Program-made: the position numbers and the translations under genes
In this document: one piece after another, positions 8,617-21,201 of the stretch
How positions within the stretch are numbered: position 1 is the first letter of the stretch
How the letters are laid out: the number at the start of each line of letters is the position of its first letter
The notes under the pieces: model-generated
What the model saw: the letters and a program-made list of their open reading frames with translations, nothing else
Database searches by the model: none
Told to the model about the DNA's origin: nothing
NCBI RefSeq assembly: GCF_008365385.1
Contig: NZ_QOVF01000001.1
Coordinates: 1,240,001-1,304,000 of the forward strand
From: Halopseudomonas laoshanensis
GTDB lineage: Bacteria; Pseudomonadota; Gammaproteobacteria; Pseudomonadales; Pseudomonadaceae
DNA: 64,000 bases
Direction: 5' to 3'

Positions 8617-9528
8617 CTAAATCGGCAAAGACACCAACGCCTCATCCCGCACCGGCAACACATCCACCGCCACTGTCAGCTTATGCTCACCACCACCGGT
8701 CATCACCCCCTTGAGCGGAGTCACATCGGCAAAATCCCGGCCCCAGCCGAGCACAATGTAGCGCTCATCCGGCACACAGCCGTTGGTGGGATCGATCTCC
8801 AGCCAGCCCCAACCGGGAATAAATACCGCCAACCAGGCATGGGTCGCGTCGGCGCCGAGCAGCTTTTCCTGGCCTGCTGGGGGCATGGTTTCCATATAGC
8901 CGCTGATATAGCGTGCAGCAAGCCCCAGCGACCGCAGACAGCCAATGGCCAGATGAGCGAAATCCTGGCAAACACCGCGCCTGCTGGCGAGCACTTCCTT
9001 GAGCGGCGTGGCCACTGTGGTGAAGTCCGGGTCGTAGACGAACTCGTTGAATATCCGCTGATTGAGATCCAGCACCGCATCGAGCAAATTGCGCCCTGCA
9101 GCAAAGCTGCTCAGCGCATAGTTGGCCAGACTCTCGTGCTGATGGATAAAGGGCGAGTCGAGCATGAACAGCCGCGCTTCCAGACAATCACGATTGCTGT
9201 AGCGAATATCGGCTGCGGTTTCGCGCACGGCCTGTTCCCAGGCTATGGTAGAAAAGAAATCCTGCGTCGGCCGCGGTCGAGTTTCGATCTCGCTGGTGAC
9301 GTTTACCTGCAACTCTTCATGTAGCGATTCGAGGGAAAAATACACCACTCGATTACCGAAGAAATCAATACGCTCACGCATCCTCACCGGATTCGGTGAG
9401 ATTTCCAGCTTGGCGTTGGTACACCATTGCCAGGGCAGATTGCGTGGCAGAATGCGCGCCTCGTTATGGCTCAGGCTGACGGGGCCGCTGTATTCATAGA
9501 GCGTGCTGTGGCGTAACTGGTATTTCAT
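8617..9528 (-). CDS. transglutaminase-like protein (N-terminal bundle plus transglutaminase core)
   Basis: The 303-aa protein belongs to the COG1305 transglutaminase-like family. The N-terminal part (about 1-85, MKYQLRHSTLYEYSGPVSLSHNEAR) is the small beta domain found before many bacterial transglutaminase cores. The papain-like triad is intact: Cys187 in RRGVCQDFAHLA, His230 in DATHAWLAVFIPGWGW, Asp246 in EIDPTNG. There is no signal peptide, so it acts in the cytoplasm. Family members cleave or form amide bonds; the substrate is unknown. It is last in a minus-strand operon after an ATP-grasp/alpha-E fusion (14-base gap), a neighbourhood predicted to make or process a peptide. Confidence 0.9.
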   Translation of the reverse strand: MKYQLRHSTLYEYSGPVSLSHNEARILPRNLPWQWCTNAKLEISPNPVRMRERIDFFGNRVVYFSLESLHEELQVNVTSEIETRPRPTQDFFSTIAWEQAVRETAADIRYSNRDCLEARLFMLDSPFIHQHESLANYALSSFAAGRNLLDAVLDLNQRIFNEFVYDPDFTTVATPLKEVLASRRGVCQDFAHLAIGCLRSLGLAARYISGYMETMPPAGQEKLLGADATHAWLAVFIPGWGWLEIDPTNGCVPDERYIVLGWGRDFADVTPLKGVMTGGGEHKLTVAVDVLPVRDEALVSLPI

Positions 9529-9542
9529 TTGCCGGAGCCCTA

Positions 9543-12137
9543 TTAGGAGTTGTTGCTGTATTGCATGGTGACCAACTGGCGAGGCGGTTCCACGTGGCTG
9601 AAATGACTGTGCGACAAGGCGTTGGACAATTCAGACATTGGCTCAATCAGTTGATCCAGTAGCTGAGCAAGGAGCTCGCGTGCCTCTTCGGAAGTCTCCA
9701 GATCCGCCAGCATGCTGATATCCACCAGATGCAGCTTGCTGGTCGCCTCGATGATCAGGCGCTTTTCCAGGTTGCGGTAAGGCGAGCTGCCCTGGGACGG
9801 CAACCGGGTGATCTGCCGTTCCAGACGTTTGAGCATATAACCGACCGAGCGCGGATTGGTTTCATCGAACAGCAGCAGATCGAGAATCGCCGCGGGATGC
9901 AGCTGGGACCGATAGCGGCGACGGTACACGGTAAAGTTGTCGGTAGACGCGAGCACCACTTCCCATAATGGAATGCCCGGTTGAGTCGCAGTCAGCAGCG
10001 CCAGCTTGAGCAATTGCAGACTGCCCAGCGTGCGTTCGATAAAACGCCCCATGTCCAGAAAGCGCCAGCCGTAATGGTGCGGCATGGTTTCATTGCACAG
10101 GCCGAAAAACGCCGAAAGATCCAGCACCATGGCCTCCAGCAAACGCTGGCCAACCACTACGCCACGGGTTCTGGGCATGCTGTTGAAACGCTGACGCAGG
10201 CTGTTGATCGCGCGCCAGCTGTCATCGCCCAGATGATCGCGCACTGCTCTGCTGTTGCGCACGAAATGACCGAAAAGCATCGGCAGCCCTTCTGGCTGAT
10301 CATCGGCGAACAACAGCAACAGACGATCCCGCGTGAGGATGTGTTCAGGTGAAAACCGGGAATGGCCGCGGGCCGCATCCAGCTCCTCTTCCAGGGTCTC
10401 TGGATCCAGGCTGATGTCCAGCGCCGCCAACAAGTCAGGCAGGATATTACTGTTACTCTCGTGCCGATCATCCTGCAGCAGCCGCCCCAGGGCTTCGCGC
10501 AACAGGCGCGCACGGGTATCCAGACGTTCGCCATAGCGGCCCATCCAGAACAGGCTCTCCGCTACTCGGCAAGGCAGATCTTTGCCATCCCGGGTCACCA
10601 CTATGGGTCCCTGAGCCTGGCGCAACATACTGATATGCGGTTGCGGTACCGGCGCCAGCACCCACACATCCTTGACCGTACGGCTTTGCATCAGCGGCGC
10701 GCCAGGCTCGCCAACCCAGGCCAGCCCGCCGGGCATCACACGGAAATGCCGTTCGTGTACCGGTTTGCCCAGATCCTCCGGCTCGACCAGACTGAAAAAC
10801 CGCAGCGTCGTATGTTGCCGCTCCAGCTTTCTGGTCTGCGGATTAAAGCCTGGGGTAACCGAAGACACCACCGGACGCTGCGCGGTAAAGAGATAGGGAC
10901 GCTGCTGCAGATCACGGCGCAGTCCCTGGATAGCTTCCAGACTCATCTGCCCTGCCCTGAAAACTTTCCCGGGCTGGCTGATGTCGCGCAGTATCCACTC
11001 ATCCAACGACTGGTTAACCTGCGCCAGGCCTTCGCTATTCCCGCACCAGAGCGTCTCACGGCAGCGTAACAGCAGGGTTTCACCCAACAGCCGTTGGCAT
11101 AGACCCGGCAGGAACGCAGCGAGTGCCGGATGCTCAAGGATTCCGGCGCCCAGGGCGTTGGCAATCCGCACTTCACCATTGCGCGCCGCCTGCAGCAAGC
11201 CCGGCACGCCAAGCAAGGAGTCGGGGCGCAGCTCCAGCGGGTCGCACCAGGGGTCATTGATCTGCCGAACGATCACGTCAACCTGGGTCAAACCGCCCAG
11301 CGTACGTACTGATACCTGCCCCTCGCGCACGACCAGATCATCACCCTCGACCAGCGCAAAGTTCATATAGTTGGCCAGCCAGGCATGCTCGAAGTAACCA
11401 GGGCTGCCCGGACCGGGTGACAACAGCACGATATTCGGCTGTTCGCGACCGGAACCGGCCAGACCGGCAAGACAGCGATGCTGGGCCTGATGAAAGCCGG
11501 CCAGACGGTTGATCGGTGCTTCCCGGTAGATACTCGGCAACGCACGGGCCAGCGTAATTCGGTTTTCCAATGCATAGCCGGCACCGGACGGTGACTGCGT
11601 CCAGTCGCCCAGCACCTGCCACTGCCCCTGCTCATCGCGGATCAGGTCAGTACCATGAAAAATCAGCAGCGGGCGGTCCAGCTGGGACGGCGAATCGGCA
11701 GCGGCAAACAGAAAGCCGGGATGGGTAAATACCAGCTCCGGCGGCAATAGCCCTTCATTGATGACGTTACGGTCACCGTAAAGATCATCGAGCAAGTGTT
11801 CCAGCAGCCGGCTGCGCTGCTTCAACCCGGCTTCAAGAGTCTGCCATTCATGGGTATTGATCACCCATGGCAAGCAATCCAGCTGCCAGGAGCGCAGTTG
11901 GCCAGGGTCGTCCTCGTAGGGATTGAAAGTAACGCCGTTCTCATGCAGCAGGTTCTGCGCTTCTTCGCTGCGGCTGACCAGAAAGTCCGGACCCAGCGCA
12001 GAGAACTCCTCGATAAGGGCTTGCCAATGGCTGCGCGGCTGCTGATCGCTGCCCAGCAGTTCGTCATGCTCTTCATGTCCGGGATAATCCCCGAGAAGCG
12101 ATTTAAGCGATGGATCCAGATTACCCGATAACAGCAT
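9543..12137 (-). CDS. circularly permuted type 2 ATP-grasp protein fused to a C-terminal alpha-E domain
   Basis: The 864-aa protein combines COG2308 (about residues 30-500) and COG2307 alpha-E (about 505-850, starting CRVAESLFWMGRYGERLDTRARLL). ATP-grasp members join carboxylates to amines with ATP; the alpha-E domain is an all-helical partner of unknown activity. Family landmarks are present: FNPYEDDPGQLRSWQLDCLP, GDDLVVREGQV and DSLLGVPGLLQAARNGEV. However, the segment that reads VVKPANESGGYG in the split homologue at 15781 is here ILRDISQPGKVFRAG (about 383-398), lacking the Lys and the Gly-Gly-Tyr-Gly loop. ATP binding may therefore be weak or lost. An AGGA site precedes the ATG. The gene lies between two transglutaminase genes. 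Confidence 0.88.
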   Translation of the reverse strand: MLLSGNLDPSLKSLLGDYPGHEEHDELLGSDQQPRSHWQALIEEFSALGPDFLVSRSEEAQNLLHENGVTFNPYEDDPGQLRSWQLDCLPWVINTHEWQTLEAGLKQRSRLLEHLLDDLYGDRNVINEGLLPPELVFTHPGFLFAAADSPSQLDRPLLIFHGTDLIRDEQGQWQVLGDWTQSPSGAGYALENRITLARALPSIYREAPINRLAGFHQAQHRCLAGLAGSGREQPNIVLLSPGPGSPGYFEHAWLANYMNFALVEGDDLVVREGQVSVRTLGGLTQVDVIVRQINDPWCDPLELRPDSLLGVPGLLQAARNGEVRIANALGAGILEHPALAAFLPGLCQRLLGETLLLRCRETLWCGNSEGLAQVNQSLDEWILRDISQPGKVFRAGQMSLEAIQGLRRDLQQRPYLFTAQRPVVSSVTPGFNPQTRKLERQHTTLRFFSLVEPEDLGKPVHERHFRVMPGGLAWVGEPGAPLMQSRTVKDVWVLAPVPQPHISMLRQAQGPIVVTRDGKDLPCRVAESLFWMGRYGERLDTRARLLREALGRLLQDDRHESNSNILPDLLAALDISLDPETLEEELDAARGHSRFSPEHILTRDRLLLLFADDQPEGLPMLFGHFVRNSRAVRDHLGDDSWRAINSLRQRFNSMPRTRGVVVGQRLLEAMVLDLSAFFGLCNETMPHHYGWRFLDMGRFIERTLGSLQLLKLALLTATQPGIPLWEVVLASTDNFTVYRRRYRSQLHPAAILDLLLFDETNPRSVGYMLKRLERQITRLPSQGSSPYRNLEKRLIIEATSKLHLVDISMLADLETSEEARELLAQLLDQLIEPMSELSNALSHSHFSHVEPPRQLVTMQYSNNS

Positions 12138-12196: not shown

Positions 12197-15100
12197 TTAT
12201 AGACCAGAGGCAGGCACGGCAGCACGTCGCAGGTCGAGTGTATGCGGGTATTCCTGGCCGGGAGCCTGCTCAATTCGTTTCATCTCTCCCTGGGTATGTC
12301 CATGCGACCAGAAACGCGCCATACGGCGAGCTTCAGCTTCATTGGCATTCACCGGGAAGGTTTCATAATTGCGCCCTGCCGGATGCACTACGTGATAGGT
12401 GCAGCCGCCCAGGGAACGGTTGTTCCAGCTGTCGACCAGGTCGAATACCAGGGGCGCATGTACCTCAATCATCGGATGCATAGCCGAAGGCGGCTGCCAG
12501 GCACGATAGCGTACTGCAGCCACGCCCTCCCCAGGGATGCCGGTAAACTGCAATGGCACCTTGTAACCATTGCAGGTCAGTACGTGGCGTGAAGGATTGA
12601 AGTCGCTGACTTTCACTTCCATACGTTCGACCGACGAATCCACATAGCGGGCAGTACCGCCCCCGCTGACCTCCTCCCCCAACACGTGCCAAGGCTCGAT
12701 AGCCTGGCGCAACTCCATACCCACACCGTCGTAGCGCACTTCGCCGCAATGCGGGAAGCGGAACTCCAGGAAGGGTGCAAACCAGTCAGCTTCAAAGGCA
12801 AAGCCATGCGCATTCAGATCGGCAATCACATCGCGCAGATCCTGCCAGATAAAGTGCGGCATCATCCAGCGATCGTGCAGTGCTGTACCCCAGCGCACCA
12901 GTGGCTTGCGGTAGGGTTTGGCGTAGAAGCGAGCGACCAGCGCCCTGATCAACAATTGCTGCATCAGACTCATTTGCGCGTGCGGCGGCATTTCGAAACC
13001 GCGCAGCTCAAGCAGCCCCAACCGCCCGGTAGCGGTGTCGGGCGAATAGAGCTTGTCGATGCAGAACTCCGCGCGGTGGGTATTGCCGGTGATATCAGTC
13101 AGCAAATGCCGCAGCAGGCGGTCCACCAGCCAGGGCTGGGGCACTTCGCCCTCGGGCATCTGCGAGAGCGCGATCTCCAGCTCGTACAAAGCTTCATGGC
13201 GTGCTTCATCGACCCGGGGTGCCTGGCTGGTCGGGCCGATAAACAGCCCGGAAAACAGGTAAGACAGGCTCGGGTGGTGCTGCCAGAAGGTCAACATACT
13301 GGCGAGCAAGTCCGGGCGGCGCAGAAACGGCGAATCCGCAGGCGTTTTACCGCCCAGCGTGACATGGTTGCCACCGCCAGTACCGGTATGCCGACCATCG
13401 AGCATGAATTTCTCGGTACCCAGCCGGGTCAGGCGCGCTTCTTCGTAGAGGATATGCGTATTGTCGACCAGATCGCGCCAGTTGGATGCCGGCATCACGT
13501 TGACTTCAATCACACCCGGATCAGGCGTAATCATGAACTTCTCGATGCGCGAATCCGAAGGCGGAGCATAACCCTCAATGCACACGGGCATCTTCAGGTG
13601 AGCAGCGGTCTGCTCGATAGAGGCCAGCAGCTCGAGGTATTCCTCAAGTTGAGCCAATGGCGGCAGGAAGATAAACAGTTTGCCGTCACGCTCTTCCAGA
13701 CACAGCGCCGTGCCGATAACACCCTCTTCACTCAGATCGGTCAACTGCTCCTGCCAATCCTGGCCAACTGACTGATGATGGCGGCCGTCTGTCTGGTTGC
13801 TGGCCGCCTGCACTTCGCTGTAGCGGCTGGCCACTTCACCATGAACATCCGACAGTGCCGGCGGCGTGTCGAACAACGAGCGCGGCTGTGGCTCATCAAG
13901 CTTGCGCAGCGGCAAAGCGGAAAGTGGTAAACGCAGGCCCATGGGCGAGTCGCCGGGAACCAGGTACAGATTCTGCCGGCGGATCGGCCAGCGGCTGCTT
14001 TGCCAGCGATCGGTGCTCAGATCACGGGCCAATGGCAACGCCAGGCCGGTCATCTTGTCCAGGCCGCGTTCAAGCAACCGCACCAGTCTGGCGCGGCCCT
14101 CGTCATCCTGCAGCTCGTCATCACTGAGTTTCACGTCGCTGGGCTGTTGCTGCTCGAGCCACAGGTAATAGTAGGTATCTTCAAAACAGGGAATCAGATA
14201 GCGCTCATCCAATTCCAATCGCTTGGTCAGCTCAGCAGCAAAACGCTGCACGTCCTTTTCGCCGAACTGGTAGTCTTTTTCCACATCTGCCAGCCACTGG
14301 TCATCCTGCCACATGGGCTTGCCGTCGCGGCGCCAGTAGCAGGCCAGGGCCCAGCGCGGCAGCGGCTCACCTGGGTACCATTTGCCCTGCTGGTAGTGCA
14401 TCAGGGAATGTGGCGCGTAATGCGGGCGCAGACGCCGCAGCAATTTCTCGGCGAGCCCTCTTTTGGTCGGCCCTTGCGCGGCGATGGTCCATTCTGGTGC
14501 ATCCATGTCGTCAACTGATACAAAAGTGGGCTCGCCGCCCATGGTCAGACGCACGTCAAGCTCTTCAAGTTGCTGATCAACCTGATCGCCCAGCGCATCA
14601 ATTCGTGCCCACTGGTCTTCGGTATAGGGTTTGGTCACGCGCGGATCTTCATGCACGCGCGTGACGCTCATCTTGAAGTCGAACTCCACCTTGCACGGCT
14701 CGGAAGCACCGGTGATAGGTGCCGCACTGGAAGGCTCTGGTGTCGCCGCCAAGGGAATATGCCCTTCCCCAGCAAACAGGCCGGATGTGGGATCCAGACC
14801 AATCCAGCCCGCACCGGGAATGAATACTTCGGTCCAGGCATGCAGATCGGTAAAGTCCACTTCGGTCCCTGAGGGACCGTCGAGCGCTTTTACATCAGCG
14901 GTTAGCTGAATCAGATAGCCCGACACGAAGCGCGCTGCCAGACCCAACTGGCGAAATATCTCCACCAGCAGCCAGGACGAATCACGGCATGAACCACGCT
15001 GCAGGGTCAGGGTTTCCTCCGCGCTCTGCACGCCCGGTTCCATGCGGATCAGGTATTCGATGTCCTGCGACAAACGCTGATTGATCGATACCAGGAAGTC

Positions 15101-15526
15101 CGCCACGGACCTGGGCTCTTTGCTGACGGTGGTCAACCATGCCGCAAGCAAGGGGCCTGGCTCATTCTTTTCCAGGTACGGCCCCAACTCCTTGCTCAAC
15201 GCCTTGGGATATTCGAAGGGGATCTGCTCGGCGTAATCCTCGACGAAAAAATCGAAGGGATTGACCACCGTCATCGGTACCACCAGCTCTACGTCCACAT
15301 ACAGATGGTCGATCTTGTCCGGAAACACGACGCGGGCCACATGATTGCCGAAGGGGTCCTGCTGCCAGTTGATAAAGTGCTGACCACCCTCTATTTTCAA
15401 GCTGTAGGCGTCAATCGGCGTGCGGCAGTGTGGCGCGGGCTTCAGACGAATATGGTGAGCTCCAACCGCTACCGTTCTATCGAAGTCATAACGAGTGGAA
15501 TGTTTAAGCGCTACACGAATAGTCAT
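12197..15526 (-). CDS. large transglutaminase-like protein with DUF2126 region
   Basis: The 1109-aa protein has a transglutaminase core near the N terminus followed by the long DUF2126 (COG4196) region from about residue 290. The triad is visible: Cys180 in LQRGSCRDSSWLL, His229 in TDLHAWTEVFIPGAGW and Asp245 in GLDPTSG. DUF2126 has glutamine-synthetase-like or amidoligase-like features by published prediction; no activity is established. Here it includes the conserved LTMGGEPTFVSVDD and DGRHTGTGGGNHVTLGG stretches. There is no signal peptide or membrane segment. It is the first gene of the minus-strand arm and is preceded by a near-consensus sigma-54 promoter 43 bases upstream. The length is typical of the family. 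Confidence 0.9.
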   Translation of the reverse strand: MTIRVALKHSTRYDFDRTVAVGAHHIRLKPAPHCRTPIDAYSLKIEGGQHFINWQQDPFGNHVARVVFPDKIDHLYVDVELVVPMTVVNPFDFFVEDYAEQIPFEYPKALSKELGPYLEKNEPGPLLAAWLTTVSKEPRSVADFLVSINQRLSQDIEYLIRMEPGVQSAEETLTLQRGSCRDSSWLLVEIFRQLGLAARFVSGYLIQLTADVKALDGPSGTEVDFTDLHAWTEVFIPGAGWIGLDPTSGLFAGEGHIPLAATPEPSSAAPITGASEPCKVEFDFKMSVTRVHEDPRVTKPYTEDQWARIDALGDQVDQQLEELDVRLTMGGEPTFVSVDDMDAPEWTIAAQGPTKRGLAEKLLRRLRPHYAPHSLMHYQQGKWYPGEPLPRWALACYWRRDGKPMWQDDQWLADVEKDYQFGEKDVQRFAAELTKRLELDERYLIPCFEDTYYYLWLEQQQPSDVKLSDDELQDDEGRARLVRLLERGLDKMTGLALPLARDLSTDRWQSSRWPIRRQNLYLVPGDSPMGLRLPLSALPLRKLDEPQPRSLFDTPPALSDVHGEVASRYSEVQAASNQTDGRHHQSVGQDWQEQLTDLSEEGVIGTALCLEERDGKLFIFLPPLAQLEEYLELLASIEQTAAHLKMPVCIEGYAPPSDSRIEKFMITPDPGVIEVNVMPASNWRDLVDNTHILYEEARLTRLGTEKFMLDGRHTGTGGGNHVTLGGKTPADSPFLRRPDLLASMLTFWQHHPSLSYLFSGLFIGPTSQAPRVDEARHEALYELEIALSQMPEGEVPQPWLVDRLLRHLLTDITGNTHRAEFCIDKLYSPDTATGRLGLLELRGFEMPPHAQMSLMQQLLIRALVARFYAKPYRKPLVRWGTALHDRWMMPHFIWQDLRDVIADLNAHGFAFEADWFAPFLEFRFPHCGEVRYDGVGMELRQAIEPWHVLGEEVSGGGTARYVDSSVERMEVKVSDFNPSRHVLTCNGYKVPLQFTGIPGEGVAAVRYRAWQPPSAMHPMIEVHAPLVFDLVDSWNNRSLGGCTYHVVHPAGRNYETFPVNANEAEARRMARFWSHGHTQGEMKRIEQAPGQEYPHTLDLRRAAVPASGL

Positions 15527-15568: not shown

Positions 15569-15585
15569 AGCAACGCCTGTGCCAA
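15569..15585 (-). promoter_or_regulatory. near-consensus sigma-54 promoter for the minus arm of the transglutaminase cluster
   Basis: On the minus strand the sequence reads TTGGCACAGGCGTTGCT. This matches the YTGGCACG-R-N3-TTGCW consensus at all positions but one, with exact GG-N10-GC spacing. It ends 43 bases before the ATG at 15526, leaving room for a 5' leader of about 30 bases. Confidence 0.7.
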
Positions 15586-15613
15586 GCGCCCTGGGTAAAC
15601 TCTTTTGAATATA

Positions 15614-15673
15614 GCTGGTCTGTGTTGAGGATAACTCTTTTGGCATCCAGCAGTATGACAATCATGGACCAGC
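15614..15673. promoter_or_regulatory. inverted repeat between the divergent promoters, candidate activator site
   Basis: GCTGGTC at 15614-15620 and GACCAGC at 15667-15673 form a 7-bp inverted pair 46 bases apart. It lies between the two candidate sigma-54 promoters, where an enhancer-binding protein would be expected. The sequence does not clearly match the NtrC site, so the cognate activator is unknown. Confidence 0.3.
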
Positions 15674-15726
15674 ACATATCTACTAACATCAATCCTAATG
15701 GCTAAAGCGGCAAATGCGTATTAGGC

Positions 15727-15742
15727 TGGTATAGCAATTGCA
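15727..15742 (+). promoter_or_regulatory. candidate sigma-54 promoter for the plus arm of the transglutaminase cluster
   Basis: TGGTATAGCAATTGCA has exact GG-N10-GC spacing and a perfect TTGCA -12 element, but the -24 element is only partly matched (TGGTATA against TGGCACG). It lies 38 bases before the ATG at 15781. Confidence 0.45.
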
Positions 15743-15780: not shown

Positions 15781-17235
15781 ATGAGCAAAGTTAATTGGGA
15801 AGACTACGCCTCTAAGGGTTTTTTTGACGAACTCATCTCTGCTTCCGGACAGGCAAGACCGGAAGCAGCCATGCTTTGCCAGTATCTCGCCGATCTGGAC
15901 GCGCGCGAGCTGAGCGAGCATAAAACGGCGGCTGAGGTCGCCATCCAGCTGATGGGCATCACCTTCACGGTGTATACCGAAGGCAACATGATCGACCGCG
16001 CCTGGCCGTTCGACATCGTGCCCCGCATCATACCGCTGGCCGAATGGCAGAAGACCGAAGCCGGTTTGAAGCAGCGGGTACAAGCGCTGAACATGTTTAT
16101 CGATGATTTATACCACGATCAGAAGATCATCAAGGACAAGGTCTTCCCTGCCGAAATCCTCGCCAAGTCAGTGAACTTCCGCAAACAATGCGTCGGCGTC
16201 CACCCCCCGCACAATATCTGGGCGCATATCTGCGGCTCTGACCTGGTGCGCGACAAGGACGGCACGCTCTATGTGCTCGAAGACAACCTGCGCATACCCT
16301 CTGGCGTGTCGTACATGCTGGAGAATCGCAACGTCACCAAACGGGTGTTGCCCGATCTCTTTGCTACCGGCCGCATCCAACCGGTGGATGATTACACCTC
16401 GCAGCTGTATGACATGCTCGCCTCCATGTCCCCGCGCCCCGGCGACGACCCCTGTATCGTCATTTTGACGCCGGGCATCTACAACTCCGCCTATTACGAG
16501 CACGCCTACCTGGCGCAGCAAATGGGCATTGAGGTGGTTGAGGGCTCCGACCTGGTGGTCGGTGAAGACGACTGTGTATATATGCGCCGTATCGACGGCC
16601 TGAGCCGCGTCGACGTGATCTACCGCCGTGTTGATGATCTGTTTATTGATCCCGAGGTGTTCAATCCGGACTCAGCCCTGGGCGTCAAAGGCCTGATGCG
16701 CGCCTGGCGCAAGGGTAAGGTAGCGCTGGCCAACGCGCCGGGTGCTGGCGTAGCCGACGACAAGGTGGTCTACGCCTTCGTGCCAGCGATCATCAAATAC
16801 TATCTCGACCAGGAACCGCTGTTGCCGAACGTCCCCAGCTACCTGTGCATGTTCGACGACGACCGCAAGTACGTGCTCGACAACCTCGACAAGTTGGTGG
16901 TCAAACCGGCCAATGAGTCTGGTGGCTACGGCATGCTGATCGGGCCGCATTCAACGAAAAAGGAACGCGATAAATTCGCTGAATTGATCAAGGCAGATCC
17001 GCGCAACTATATGGCCCAGCCTACTCTGGCCCTCTCTACCTCACCTACCCTGTGCGAAAACGGCGTTGAGCCGCGCCATGTTGATCTACGCCCATTCATC
17101 CTCTCCGGCGAGACCCCGTGGGTAACCACCGGCGGCTTGACCCGCGTTGCCCTGACCAAAGGTTCACTGGTGGTCAATTCGTCCCAGGGTGGCGGCAGTA
17201 AAGACACCTGGATCGTCGACATGGCGGGGAACTGA
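15781..17235 (+). CDS. circularly permuted type 2 ATP-grasp protein
   Basis: The 484-aa cytoplasmic protein of COG2308 is predicted to be an ATP-dependent carboxylate-amine ligase. Its nucleotide-binding motif is intact: KLVVKPANESGGYGMLIG at about residues 370-387. Other landmarks are FEHAYL-type YYEHAYLAQQMG, GSDLVVGEDDC, RVDVIYRRVDD and DSALGVKGLMRAWRKGKV. It is the plus-strand counterpart of the ATP-grasp half of the fusion at 9543 and is likely the catalytically competent copy. It is separated by two bases from the alpha-E gene that follows, so both products are probably made together and act as a complex. Substrate and product are unknown. Confidence 0.92.
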   Translation: MSKVNWEDYASKGFFDELISASGQARPEAAMLCQYLADLDARELSEHKTAAEVAIQLMGITFTVYTEGNMIDRAWPFDIVPRIIPLAEWQKTEAGLKQRVQALNMFIDDLYHDQKIIKDKVFPAEILAKSVNFRKQCVGVHPPHNIWAHICGSDLVRDKDGTLYVLEDNLRIPSGVSYMLENRNVTKRVLPDLFATGRIQPVDDYTSQLYDMLASMSPRPGDDPCIVILTPGIYNSAYYEHAYLAQQMGIEVVEGSDLVVGEDDCVYMRRIDGLSRVDVIYRRVDDLFIDPEVFNPDSALGVKGLMRAWRKGKVALANAPGAGVADDKVVYAFVPAIIKYYLDQEPLLPNVPSYLCMFDDDRKYVLDNLDKLVVKPANESGGYGMLIGPHSTKKERDKFAELIKADPRNYMAQPTLALSTSPTLCENGVEPRHVDLRPFILSGETPWVTTGGLTRVALTKGSLVVNSSQGGGSKDTWIVDMAGN

Positions 17236-17237
17236 TT

Positions 17238-18200
17238 ATGCTTTCAAGAGTTGCGGAAAATATCTACTGGTTGGCTCGCTACATTGAAAGAGCTGAAGAC
17301 ACTGCCCGACTGCTGAGCGTCAACAGTCACCTACTGCTCGACCTGCCCCGCTCTACCAAACTCGGCTGGTCTGAAATCATCGCCATCACCGGTAATGACG
17401 AATTGTTCGATGAGCACTACGAGACCCGTGATGAAGCCAGCGTGCTGTTGTTCATGTGCGGCGACCGGCGCTATTCAGGTTCGATCATCAGTTCACTGGC
17501 GGGCGCCCGGGAGAATTTGCGCACCACACGCGAGGTGATTCCGAGGGAAATATGGGAAGAAATCAACCAGTTATATCTGAACGTTCAGGAACAAGTTGAA
17601 GCCGGGATTACACCACGACGGCGCGATGCGTTTCTCAACCGGGTGATTCGTAGTTGCCAGACGGTGAATGGACTGGTCGAAGGTATGCTCAGCTATACCA
17701 CTGCCCGCACCTTCCTGATGATTGGCCGCCAGCTGGAACGCGCGGACATGACCACGCGCATCATCGACGTGCGTTCGGCCAACCTGCTGCCACGCAGTCC
17801 CGAAGAACTGACTCCGTTCGAAAATCTGCAGTGGATGAGTGTACTCAAATCACTCAGCGGTTTTCAGATGTACCGCCAGCATGTTCGCTTGCGCATCCGT
17901 GGCCCGGATGTGCTGCAATTTCTTCTACAGGATCGGATGTTCCCCCGCGCGGTAGCCTGCAGCCTTGAGCGTCTGGCCATTGCGTTGAAGAATCTGCCGA
18001 TGCACGAGCTGGCTTTGGAAGAAGTTGAAACTTGCAGGAAACATATTGCCGAAGCAGAGATCATACGTATGGCAGCAGAGCCGGATCTGCTGCATGCATT
18101 CGTGGACGAGATCCAGATAGATTTCACCGAATTGCACGATGCCATTCGCAAGACCTATTTTGCCGAACCGGAAGAGGCAACCCAATCACAGGAGCAATGA
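17238..18200 (+). CDS. stand-alone alpha-E domain protein
   Basis: The 320-aa all-helical protein of COG2307 (DUF403, alpha-E domain) starts MLSRVAENIYWLARYIERAEDTARLL, the classic N-terminal signature. The name comes from conserved Glu/Arg residues on predicted helices; no biochemical function is established. It is encoded two bases after the ATP-grasp gene, matching the fusion of the same two domains at 9543-12137. That is strong context for a stable ATP-grasp/alpha-E complex. It is followed after 49 bases by the metallopeptidase gene, in the same direction. Confidence 0.92.
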   Translation: MLSRVAENIYWLARYIERAEDTARLLSVNSHLLLDLPRSTKLGWSEIIAITGNDELFDEHYETRDEASVLLFMCGDRRYSGSIISSLAGARENLRTTREVIPREIWEEINQLYLNVQEQVEAGITPRRRDAFLNRVIRSCQTVNGLVEGMLSYTTARTFLMIGRQLERADMTTRIIDVRSANLLPRSPEELTPFENLQWMSVLKSLSGFQMYRQHVRLRIRGPDVLQFLLQDRMFPRAVACSLERLAIALKNLPMHELALEEVETCRKHIAEAEIIRMAAEPDLLHAFVDEIQIDFTELHDAIRKTYFAEPEEATQSQEQ

Positions 18201-18249
18201 CCTGCCCGCTCCGGCGCAGGTCGGAGCGTCCCTTCATGGATATTCACCC

Positions 18250-19395
18250 ATGAGCTATTTTGATCAGTTGGTTCAGCGCAGCGATGGTAGTCAGCTATTT
18301 GATTACCATCCCAACGGCCATGTGCAGCGCTGCCAGTGCGGCCAGACGGTGTTCTTCGACAACCAGTTTTGTCTGCGTTGCGGTTCGGCGCTGGCCTATC
18401 ATCCAGAGCAGGGCAAGCTCTGCAGCATTGAGCAGGAGCCCAACAGCGACAAATGGGTAATCCGCTCTGATGGGCCTTTGGCAGGCCAATCCTTCAGGCT
18501 CTGCCAGCATCGCCAGAGCGCGGCTCAATGCAACTGGCTGGTCAGCAAGGAAGAGAACGCGCCTTACTGTGTAGCCTGCGCTCTGAACCTGACCATCCCC
18601 GACCTGAGCATTCCAACCAATGCCGATTACTGGCTTACCACTGAGCAAGCCAAACGTCGGCTGATAGCCCAGCTGACCATGCTTGGTTTGCCCACGGTGT
18701 CCAAAAACCTGGACGCGAAACAGGGCCTTGGCTTCAAGCTGCTACGTCCCATTCCCGAAGGCCCCGCAGTGCTTACCGGGCATATGGACGGCGTGATTAC
18801 GCTGAATATAGAAGAAGCTGACCCCGCGCATCGCGAATCGGTCAGGCAGAACATGCACGAACCCTACCGCACCATGCTCGGGCATTTTCGCCACGAGTCC
18901 GGGCATTACTACTGGGATCGCCTGGTTATGGATACGCCCTGGCTGCCAGTATTCCGGGACCTGTTTGGTGACGAGCGCCTGGATTACAAACAAGCGCTGG
19001 AAACACATTACTACCAGGGCCCGCCGGCAGATTGGTTTCACACCTTTATCAGCAGCTATGCCGCATCGCATCCCTGGGAAGACTGGGCAGAAACCTGGGC
19101 GCATTACCTGCATATGACCGACACGCTGAATGTGGCGCTGGATTTCGGCATCCGCCTAGACACCCTCAAGCTGCATATCGATGAATTCAACGCTAGCCAT
19201 TTGCAGGGCTGCCCCAGAGGTAACGACGATCAGGAGGTGTTCCTGGCCTTTATCAATCGCTGGGTGCAGCTGAGCAGTGTGCTGAACGTGTTGGCCCGCA
19301 GCATGGGTCAGGCCGATATCTATCCTTTCGTGCTGACCACCCCCAGTTTGCGCAAGCTCTATCTTGTGCACAGCATCGTGGCGGATGTCGGCTAA
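18250..19395 (+). CDS. zinc-ribbon putative zinc metallopeptidase (Peptidase_Mx type)
   Basis: The 381-aa protein has an N-terminal zinc ribbon with Cys28, Cys30, Cys41 and Cys44 (RCQCGQTVFFDNQFCLRCG). More cysteines lie at about 58, 85, 94, 107 and 110. The C-terminal domain has the HExxH motif as HESGH at residues 215-219 (GHFRHESGHYYWDRL). This combination matches the putative zinc-binding metallopeptidase family seen next to transglutaminase/ATP-grasp/alpha-E genes. I start it at the ATG at 18250; an earlier in-frame ATG at 18139 would overlap the alpha-E gene by 62 bases. No signal peptide is seen. It may trim or recycle the product of the ligase system; this is inference. Confidence 0.82.
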   Translation: MSYFDQLVQRSDGSQLFDYHPNGHVQRCQCGQTVFFDNQFCLRCGSALAYHPEQGKLCSIEQEPNSDKWVIRSDGPLAGQSFRLCQHRQSAAQCNWLVSKEENAPYCVACALNLTIPDLSIPTNADYWLTTEQAKRRLIAQLTMLGLPTVSKNLDAKQGLGFKLLRPIPEGPAVLTGHMDGVITLNIEEADPAHRESVRQNMHEPYRTMLGHFRHESGHYYWDRLVMDTPWLPVFRDLFGDERLDYKQALETHYYQGPPADWFHTFISSYAASHPWEDWAETWAHYLHMTDTLNVALDFGIRLDTLKLHIDEFNASHLQGCPRGNDDQEVFLAFINRWVQLSSVLNVLARSMGQADIYPFVLTTPSLRKLYLVHSIVADVG

Positions 19396-19971: not shown

Positions 19972-21201
19972 ATGAACAGCCAGACGCCCCCCTCTACCGT
20001 GATTGCCGGAATGGACACCCAGCGCCTCGAGCGCATAGCCACACACCTGGACCGGGCTTATCTGCAGCCGGGCAAACTGCCTGGCGCAATGACCCTGGTC
20101 GCCCGTCGCGGGGAAATCACTTACCTGCACTCCCAGGGTTTGATGGACGTGGAGCGCAACAAGCCAGTGCAGCGCGACACCCTGTTCCGTATCTATTCAA
20201 TGACCAAGCCGGTCACCTCCATTGCGTTGATGCAGTTGTACGAACAAGGCCGCTTTCTACTCGATGATCCGGTGCACAAGTACATTCCCTCCTGGGCAAA
20301 GTTGCGCGTTTACAAGTCCGGCATTCACCCGCAGTTTCTCACCACCGCACCTGAGCGGCCGATGAGCATCCGTGACCTGCTGACTCACCAGTCCGGCCTG
20401 ACCTACGGCTTTATGAACCGCACCAATGTGGACGCGGCTTACCGGGCACTGAAACTCGACGGCGGCACCGGGCATACCCTGGAGCGGCTGGTAGATGAGT
20501 TATCGCGCCTGCCGCTGGAATTCTCTCCCGGCAGCGCCTGGAATTACTCCGTGTCCACCGATGTGGTCGGCTATCTGGTTCAGGTATTGTCGGGTATGAC
20601 CCTGGATGAGTATCTGGCGGAACATGTGTTCAAACCCCTCGGCATGATCGATACCGCCTTTACCGTACCTACCGACAAGATTGAGCGGCTGGCAGCCTGT
20701 TACCAATACCAGCCAGGGGATCAGTTCAGCTTGCAGGACGATCCAGCGCATTCCGCGTTTACCCGTGCACACGGTTATTTATCTGGCGGCGGCGGCCTGG
20801 TCAGCAGCATGGATGATTACTACCGTTTTGCGCAGGCGCTGGCTAACCGCGGCGAGTATCAGGGCGCGCGGATCATCGGGCGCAAGACGCTGGAGTTCAT
20901 GCGCATGAATCACTTGCCAGGCAATCAGGACCTGCCGGGTGTGTCCGTGGGTGCGTTCAGTGAAACGCCCTACGAAGGCTCCGGTTTTGGACTGGGTTTC
21001 TCGGTGAAGACCGATGTCGCGAAGTCACAAACTAACGGCTCGGTGGGGGAATACGGTTGGGGCGGCATGGCCAGCACCAACTTCTTTATCGATCCGCAGG
21101 AAGACCTGCTGATGATCTTCCTGACCCAACTGATACCTTCGTCGAGTTATCAGATACGCCAGGAACTGCGGGCCATCATCAACGGCGCATTGGTAGACTA
21201 A
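19972..21201 (+). CDS. serine hydrolase of the beta-lactamase/family VIII esterase type
   Basis: The 409-aa protein is related to class C beta-lactamases and to EstB-like esterases. The catalytic SxxK motif is SMTK at residues 76-79 ([18 protein letters not shown]), followed by [12 protein letters not shown]. The second motif with Tyr is [13 protein letters not shown], and the third box is replaced by GWGGMAS, as in family VIII esterases. There is no signal peptide at [10 protein letters not shown], so it is probably cytoplasmic and more likely an esterase than a cell-wall enzyme. It is a single gene, convergent with the lipocalin gene. The physiological substrate cannot be told. Confidence 0.87.

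Follow-up and report, generated by a model that had tools for sequence, protein, structure and literature searches.

Genes of the two arms and the gap between them

The window, i.e. the whole 64-kb stretch of Halopseudomonas laoshanensis DNA that we analysed, encodes a six-gene cluster split into two divergent arms. The minus arm starts with a 1109-aa protein in which a transglutaminase (N-terminal region and core) is fused to a DUF2126 putative amidoligase (12197–15526, minus strand; Pfam PF08379, PF01841 and PF09899). It continues with an 864-aa fusion of a circularly permuted ATP-grasp with Alpha-E (9543–12137, minus strand; PF14403/PF04174 and PF04168) and ends with a 303-aa transglutaminase-like protein (8617–9528, minus strand; PF08379 and PF01841). 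The plus arm encodes a 484-aa circularly permuted ATP-grasp protein (15781–17235, plus strand; PF14403, E = 2e-164), a 320-aa Alpha-E protein (17238–18200, plus strand; PF04168, E = 2e-83) and a putative metallopeptidase with zinc-ribbon and Peptidase_Mx domains (18139–19395, plus strand; PF10005 and PF15887). The open frames of the latter two overlap by 62 bases (18139–18200), and the real start of the Peptidase_Mx gene therefore probably lies downstream of 18139. A serine beta-lactamase-family protein is encoded at 19972–21201; its top NCBIfam match is the methyl acetate hydrolase AcmB (168.8 bits against a cut-off of 550 bits) and it is probably an esterase.

The first-pass annotation of this DNA regarded the system as unknown, which is not wholly the case. 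Adjacent genes of the ATP-grasp, Alpha-E, transglutaminase and DUF2126 Pfam families place it, by its domain set, among the predicted amidoligase clusters for peptide modification. The predicted product is an ATP-dependent system acting on peptides, which would both form and cleave amide bonds.

The arms are separated by an intergenic gap of 254 bp, between the minus-arm ATG at 15526 and the plus-arm ATG at 15781. The gap contains one −24/−12 element of the sigma-54 type per arm: TGGCACAGGCGTTGCT for the minus arm (15569–15584, minus strand) and TGGTATAGCAATTGCA for the plus arm (15727–15742, plus strand). On the forward strand the former appears as AGCAACGCCTGTGCCAA at 15569–15585, the reverse complement of TTGGCACAGGCGTTGCT. 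Both elements have the GG-N10-GC spacing and both face outward. The minus-arm element has one mismatch relative to a TGGCACG-N4-TTGCW-like consensus, and the plus-arm element has three (T for C, T for C, A for G) and a perfect TTGCA. When all positions of the window were scored on both strands with a weight matrix written after the published consensus, the minus element came first (18.6 bits) and the plus element second (14.4 bits). These coordinates, spacings and ranks confirm the earlier claim of two outward sigma-54-type elements in one gap, and the distances given for them to the start codons (43 bases for the minus arm, 38 for the plus arm) are correct within one base of counting convention. 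From the standard −12 spacing, transcription of the minus arm is predicted to start around 15558, with a leader of about 32 nt; the predicted start for the plus arm is around 15753, with a leader of about 28 nt.

Between the elements lies a spacer (15585–15726) where an enhancer would be expected. It includes an ATGACA at 15655–15660 and no recognisable NtrC dyad. First-order Markov simulations give 1–4 sites of at least 14.3 bits in 64 kb, and the plus site taken alone is therefore unremarkable. The chance that the second-best site lands in the same gap and faces outward is about 0.002. The pair had been called unlikely by chance on its position, and this value agrees, but it is the conservation described below that decides the matter.

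Conservation within and beyond Halopseudomonas

As the first-pass annotation had proposed, we searched related genomes for the two elements. Among 37 Halopseudomonas genomes, the ATP-grasp gene is present in 22 (this genome included) and absent from 15. Both elements are kept genus-wide: the plus element in 22/22 cluster-bearing genomes and the minus element in 21/22. The exception is L019, whose gap is expanded to 530 bp and gave no match to the minus pattern. In both elements the GG, the GC and most flanking bases are invariant, forming islands within a spacer that is otherwise unalignable and whose length ranges between 85 and 149 bp (379 in L019). Searching the 37 genomes for the exact plus pattern, TGGTAYRGCAATTGCW, gave 22 matches, 21 of them directly upstream of the ATP-grasp gene. 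The pattern is found in 21 of the 22 genomes with the cluster (L014/G001 is one base off) and in none of the 15 congeners without it. The remaining exact copy in the genus is at G002:C12:458891-458906 (TGGTACAGCAATTGCT). The cluster itself has a patchy distribution (22/37 genomes) and is missing from some near-complete genomes, which suggests repeated loss or transfer.

To look beyond the genus, we scanned species genomes using an ATP-grasp protein alignment and collected 80 loci on protein alone. A sigma-54 site of at least 13 bits within 300 bp upstream was present for 26 of 77 ATP-grasp homologues (34%) and for 9 of 398 neighbouring genes (2.3%; Fisher exact test, p ~ 1e-15, with loci counted without correction for shared ancestry). 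Four of the nine matches among the controls precede transglutaminase, DUF2126 or Alpha-E genes of the same clusters. The 77 homologues include two from Halopseudomonas (L031 and L032), which leave the picture unchanged. Tepidiphilus (L052), Cellvibrionales (L062), Porticoccaceae (L081) and Poribacteria (L094) have elements that are perfect or nearly so, and candidate sites span Proteobacteria, Verrucomicrobia, Planctomycetes and Poribacteria. Sites were found in 27/65 loci where the ATP-grasp gene comes first versus 1/15 where a partner gene lies ahead of it, counts that are uncorrected for kinship. None was found upstream in six loci labelled as cyanobacteria, actinobacteria or an archaeon, i.e. 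groups that generally lack rpoN.

Many relatives have a single operon, in the order ATP-grasp, Alpha-E, DUF2126 and ATP-grasp-Alpha-E, with one promoter in front. Two divergent arms are found in Halopseudomonas, Halomonas/Vreelandella (L033, L036, L115), Salinicola (L035), Plasticicumulans (L034) and a Magnetococcales genome (L058). Outward elements precede both arms in Plasticicumulans (13.0 and 14.5 bits) and in Halomonas L033/L115 (16.9 and 11.5 bits). They are weaker in Magnetococcales (15.7 and 9.6 bits), and Vreelandella L036 has the plus element only (13.9 and 5.7 bits). Salinicola has neither, and is one of several relatives without a recognisable sigma-54 site. Position and spacing of the elements are conserved before orthologous genes in this genus and in other genera.

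The genome encodes rpoN (PF04552, E = 1e-71) and 13 strong sigma-54 activator genes. Genome-wide, sigma-54 sites were ranked by pattern only; perfect TGGCACN5TTGCW sites in this genome precede genes of a recognisably sigma-54 type, e.g. glnA, an apparent ureD and a flagellar rod gene. At another locus (L125, G000:C10:4000-6500), a urtA-like gene that has a sigma-54 element is preceded by repeated TGACAATGTCA palindromes. A sigma-54 activator gene is located about 2.7 kb away (C10:7947), possibly a dedicated activator with its own sites.

We consider it very probable that the gap holds two genuine divergent sigma-54 (RpoN) promoters, each serving one arm of the six-gene cluster, a judgement that concerns the promoters and leaves NtrC aside. 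Sigma-54 RNA polymerase would bind both as closed complexes, and an enhancer-binding activator in the spacer of about 140 bp would open both by looping. If a single activator acts in this way, the two arms would be co-expressed, and then only under the inducing condition. The splitting of the cluster around two outward promoters suggests selection for the co-expression of its halves.

Candidate activators and competing readings

The first-pass annotation placed the system under an enhancer-binding activator, for example one responding to nitrogen status. The sigma-54 part of this claim is strongly supported by the footprint in the genus, the enrichment before the same gene in other genera and phyla, and a published equivalent in Burkholderia cenocepacia. 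The nitrogen part is plausible by homology, but the best match to the NtrC dyad (TGCACY-N5-RGTGCA) in the window's gap reaches 1.6 bits (p = 0.89), i.e. no such dyad was found there, whereas congeners or relatives bearing a site score 11–17 bits. Most congeners likewise lack an NtrC-like dyad in the gap. A single Halopseudomonas subclade (L006, L007, L010-L013) has the dyad TGCCCCGATCCAGTGCA, or one close to it, abutting the −24 element. In Burkholderia multivorans (L113), which has the same gene set, a near-perfect NtrC site (TGCACCGCCGTGGTGCG) lies 66 bp above the sigma-54 element AGGCACGCTCCTTGCA. In Halomonas L033/L115, the two promoters flank a pair of NtrC-like sites, and about five of 30 distant site-bearing loci have the dyad at p ≤ 0.01. 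The lack of a dyad here is weak evidence, because the NtrC matrix, which finds glnA, the apparent ureD and a chemoreceptor gene in this genome, also misses the urtA-like promoter.

Published reports also link such genes with nitrogen. Mutation of ntrC lowers the ATP-grasp, Alpha-E, transglutaminase and large transglutaminase genes of B. cenocepacia H111 6–9 fold, and the cluster genes are targets shared by sigma-54 and NtrC (PMC5491218). In marine metagenomes, correlations link transglutaminase N, DUF403, DUF404 and DUF407 with urea metabolism domains (PMC3597751), which fits nitrogen control. The cluster genes go unmentioned in the main text of a conserved-regulon survey (PMC3162934) and in the main texts of nitrogen papers on P. 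stutzeri and Paraburkholderia. We searched for an activator gene beside the cluster using the GAFTGA motif and found none in the window or in any homologous locus, while two control activators were recovered. This result is compatible with control by a global activator, e.g. NtrC. On balance, and by homology with Burkholderia and Halomonas, we favour NtrC, responding to nitrogen limitation, as the likeliest activator, with modest confidence.

The promoters may instead depend on sigma-54 with an activator other than NtrC, e.g. CbrB or another of the 13, possibly acting through a weakly conserved [AG]TGACA core. This is a possibility of some weight, although we place it on the unlikely side of even. 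It would account for a gap without an NtrC dyad, but the urtA-like promoter also lacks a clear one and the absence is not decisive. In the plus orientation, the core occurs in 10 of 14 representative spacers, versus 0.84 expected in shuffles (maximum 5), and in most congeners (spacers L001-L022) it lies some 50–86 bp above the plus −24 element. It could be the enhancer half-site of another activator, or the recurrence of this short string could simply reflect shared ancestry rather than constraint. Moreover, the copy in the window (ATGACA) is a weak one, and L004 and L005 have no such element. Dyads are seen at the position of the core in some spacers (L008, CAGTGTTACAAACACTG; L022, CAGTGACATACTCACTG). 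CbrB subsites (TGTTAC/GTAACA; PMC6296734) are present in some spacers, e.g. TGTAACACTAGCAGTGTTACA in L008, but the matches are scattered and their layout is inconsistent among spacers, for which we rejected CbrB sites as the enhancer. A 20-bp motif from an unsupervised search of the spacers (TAACAC-N5-TGTGACA) was also discarded as an enhancer, since it is in about half of the representatives and absent from the window.

A further reading accepts that the elements bind sigma-54 but assigns basal expression to a sigma-70 promoter in the spacer, with sigma-54 contributing induction or serving as a roadblock. It finds a precedent in the related Anbu operon of P. putida: nitrogen limitation still induces PP_2686-2688 14–20 fold when rpoN is mutated (PMC7801951), and induction by nitrogen limitation may therefore part ways with dependence on sigma-54. 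We deem it unlikely for this cluster, where the two sigma-54 elements are the sole strongly conserved blocks in the gap. Finally, functionless chance matches to GG-N10-GC are expected by score for sites like the plus element (1–4 per 64 kb), but this explanation is effectively refuted by the conservation of the elements throughout the genus, their co-occurrence with the cluster and their enrichment before homologues in other genera.

Clusters of this type are widespread, and their biochemical role is a prediction. The conserved sigma-54 promoters suggest that the clusters are used in response to a specific inducing signal, likely a shortage of nitrogen, rather than during ordinary growth. If true, inducible control would explain why the clusters appear silent in standard conditions, and would provide a condition in which to find the product. 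A more speculative scenario, which we find rather doubtful, is that sigma-54 control is widespread and possibly ancestral in ATP-grasp/Alpha-E/DUF2126 clusters, with some lineages having exchanged the activator: NtrC would act in Burkholderia and Halomonas, and another one, reading [AG]TGACA, in Halopseudomonas.

Comparison with known systems

Iyer et al. (2009), as cited in PMC5666114 and PMC3597751, reportedly described amidoligase/ATP-grasp peptide-modification clusters and predicted the functions of their genes. The domain set of these predicted clusters (CP_ATPgrasp, Alpha-E, transglutaminase and the DUF2126 putative amidoligase) is also that of the Halopseudomonas cluster. Two other systems were considered and set aside as different: the Caulobacter NtrC target hvyA, which is a transglutaminase homologue, and the membrane-linked rloABC of P. 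aeruginosa, which also combines transglutaminase and ATP-grasp.

The Anbu operon of P. putida (PP_2685-2688: Anbu, transglutaminase, Alpha-E and ATP-grasp), for which induction by nitrogen limitation was reported (PMC5666114, PMC6376114, PMC7801951), shares the ATP-grasp, Alpha-E and transglutaminase families with the Halopseudomonas cluster. The latter differs in lacking Anbu and in having DUF2126 and Peptidase_Mx in addition. Membership in an Anbu operon was rejected: the single PF00227 match in the genome is HslV-like and lies beside argS and SPOR-like gene(s), far from the cluster.

A close parallel in gene kinds comes from B. cenocepacia H111, where I35_5080-5083 (BCAM1233-1236; PMC5491218) encode a DUF404/DUF407 ATP-grasp, a DUF403 Alpha-E, a transglutaminase and a large transglutaminase protein. 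In the B. multivorans counterpart of this operon, the ATP-grasp gene is preceded by a single sigma-54 element together with an NtrC site. The B. cenocepacia genes form a one-direction operon with one promoter, whereas those of Halopseudomonas are arranged in two divergent arms with two promoters, include an extra Peptidase_Mx gene and have no recognisable NtrC site. The cluster type and its control by NtrC and sigma-54 are already known in Burkholderia, and what the present analysis adds is the pairing of divergent promoters and the breadth of the association with sigma-54.
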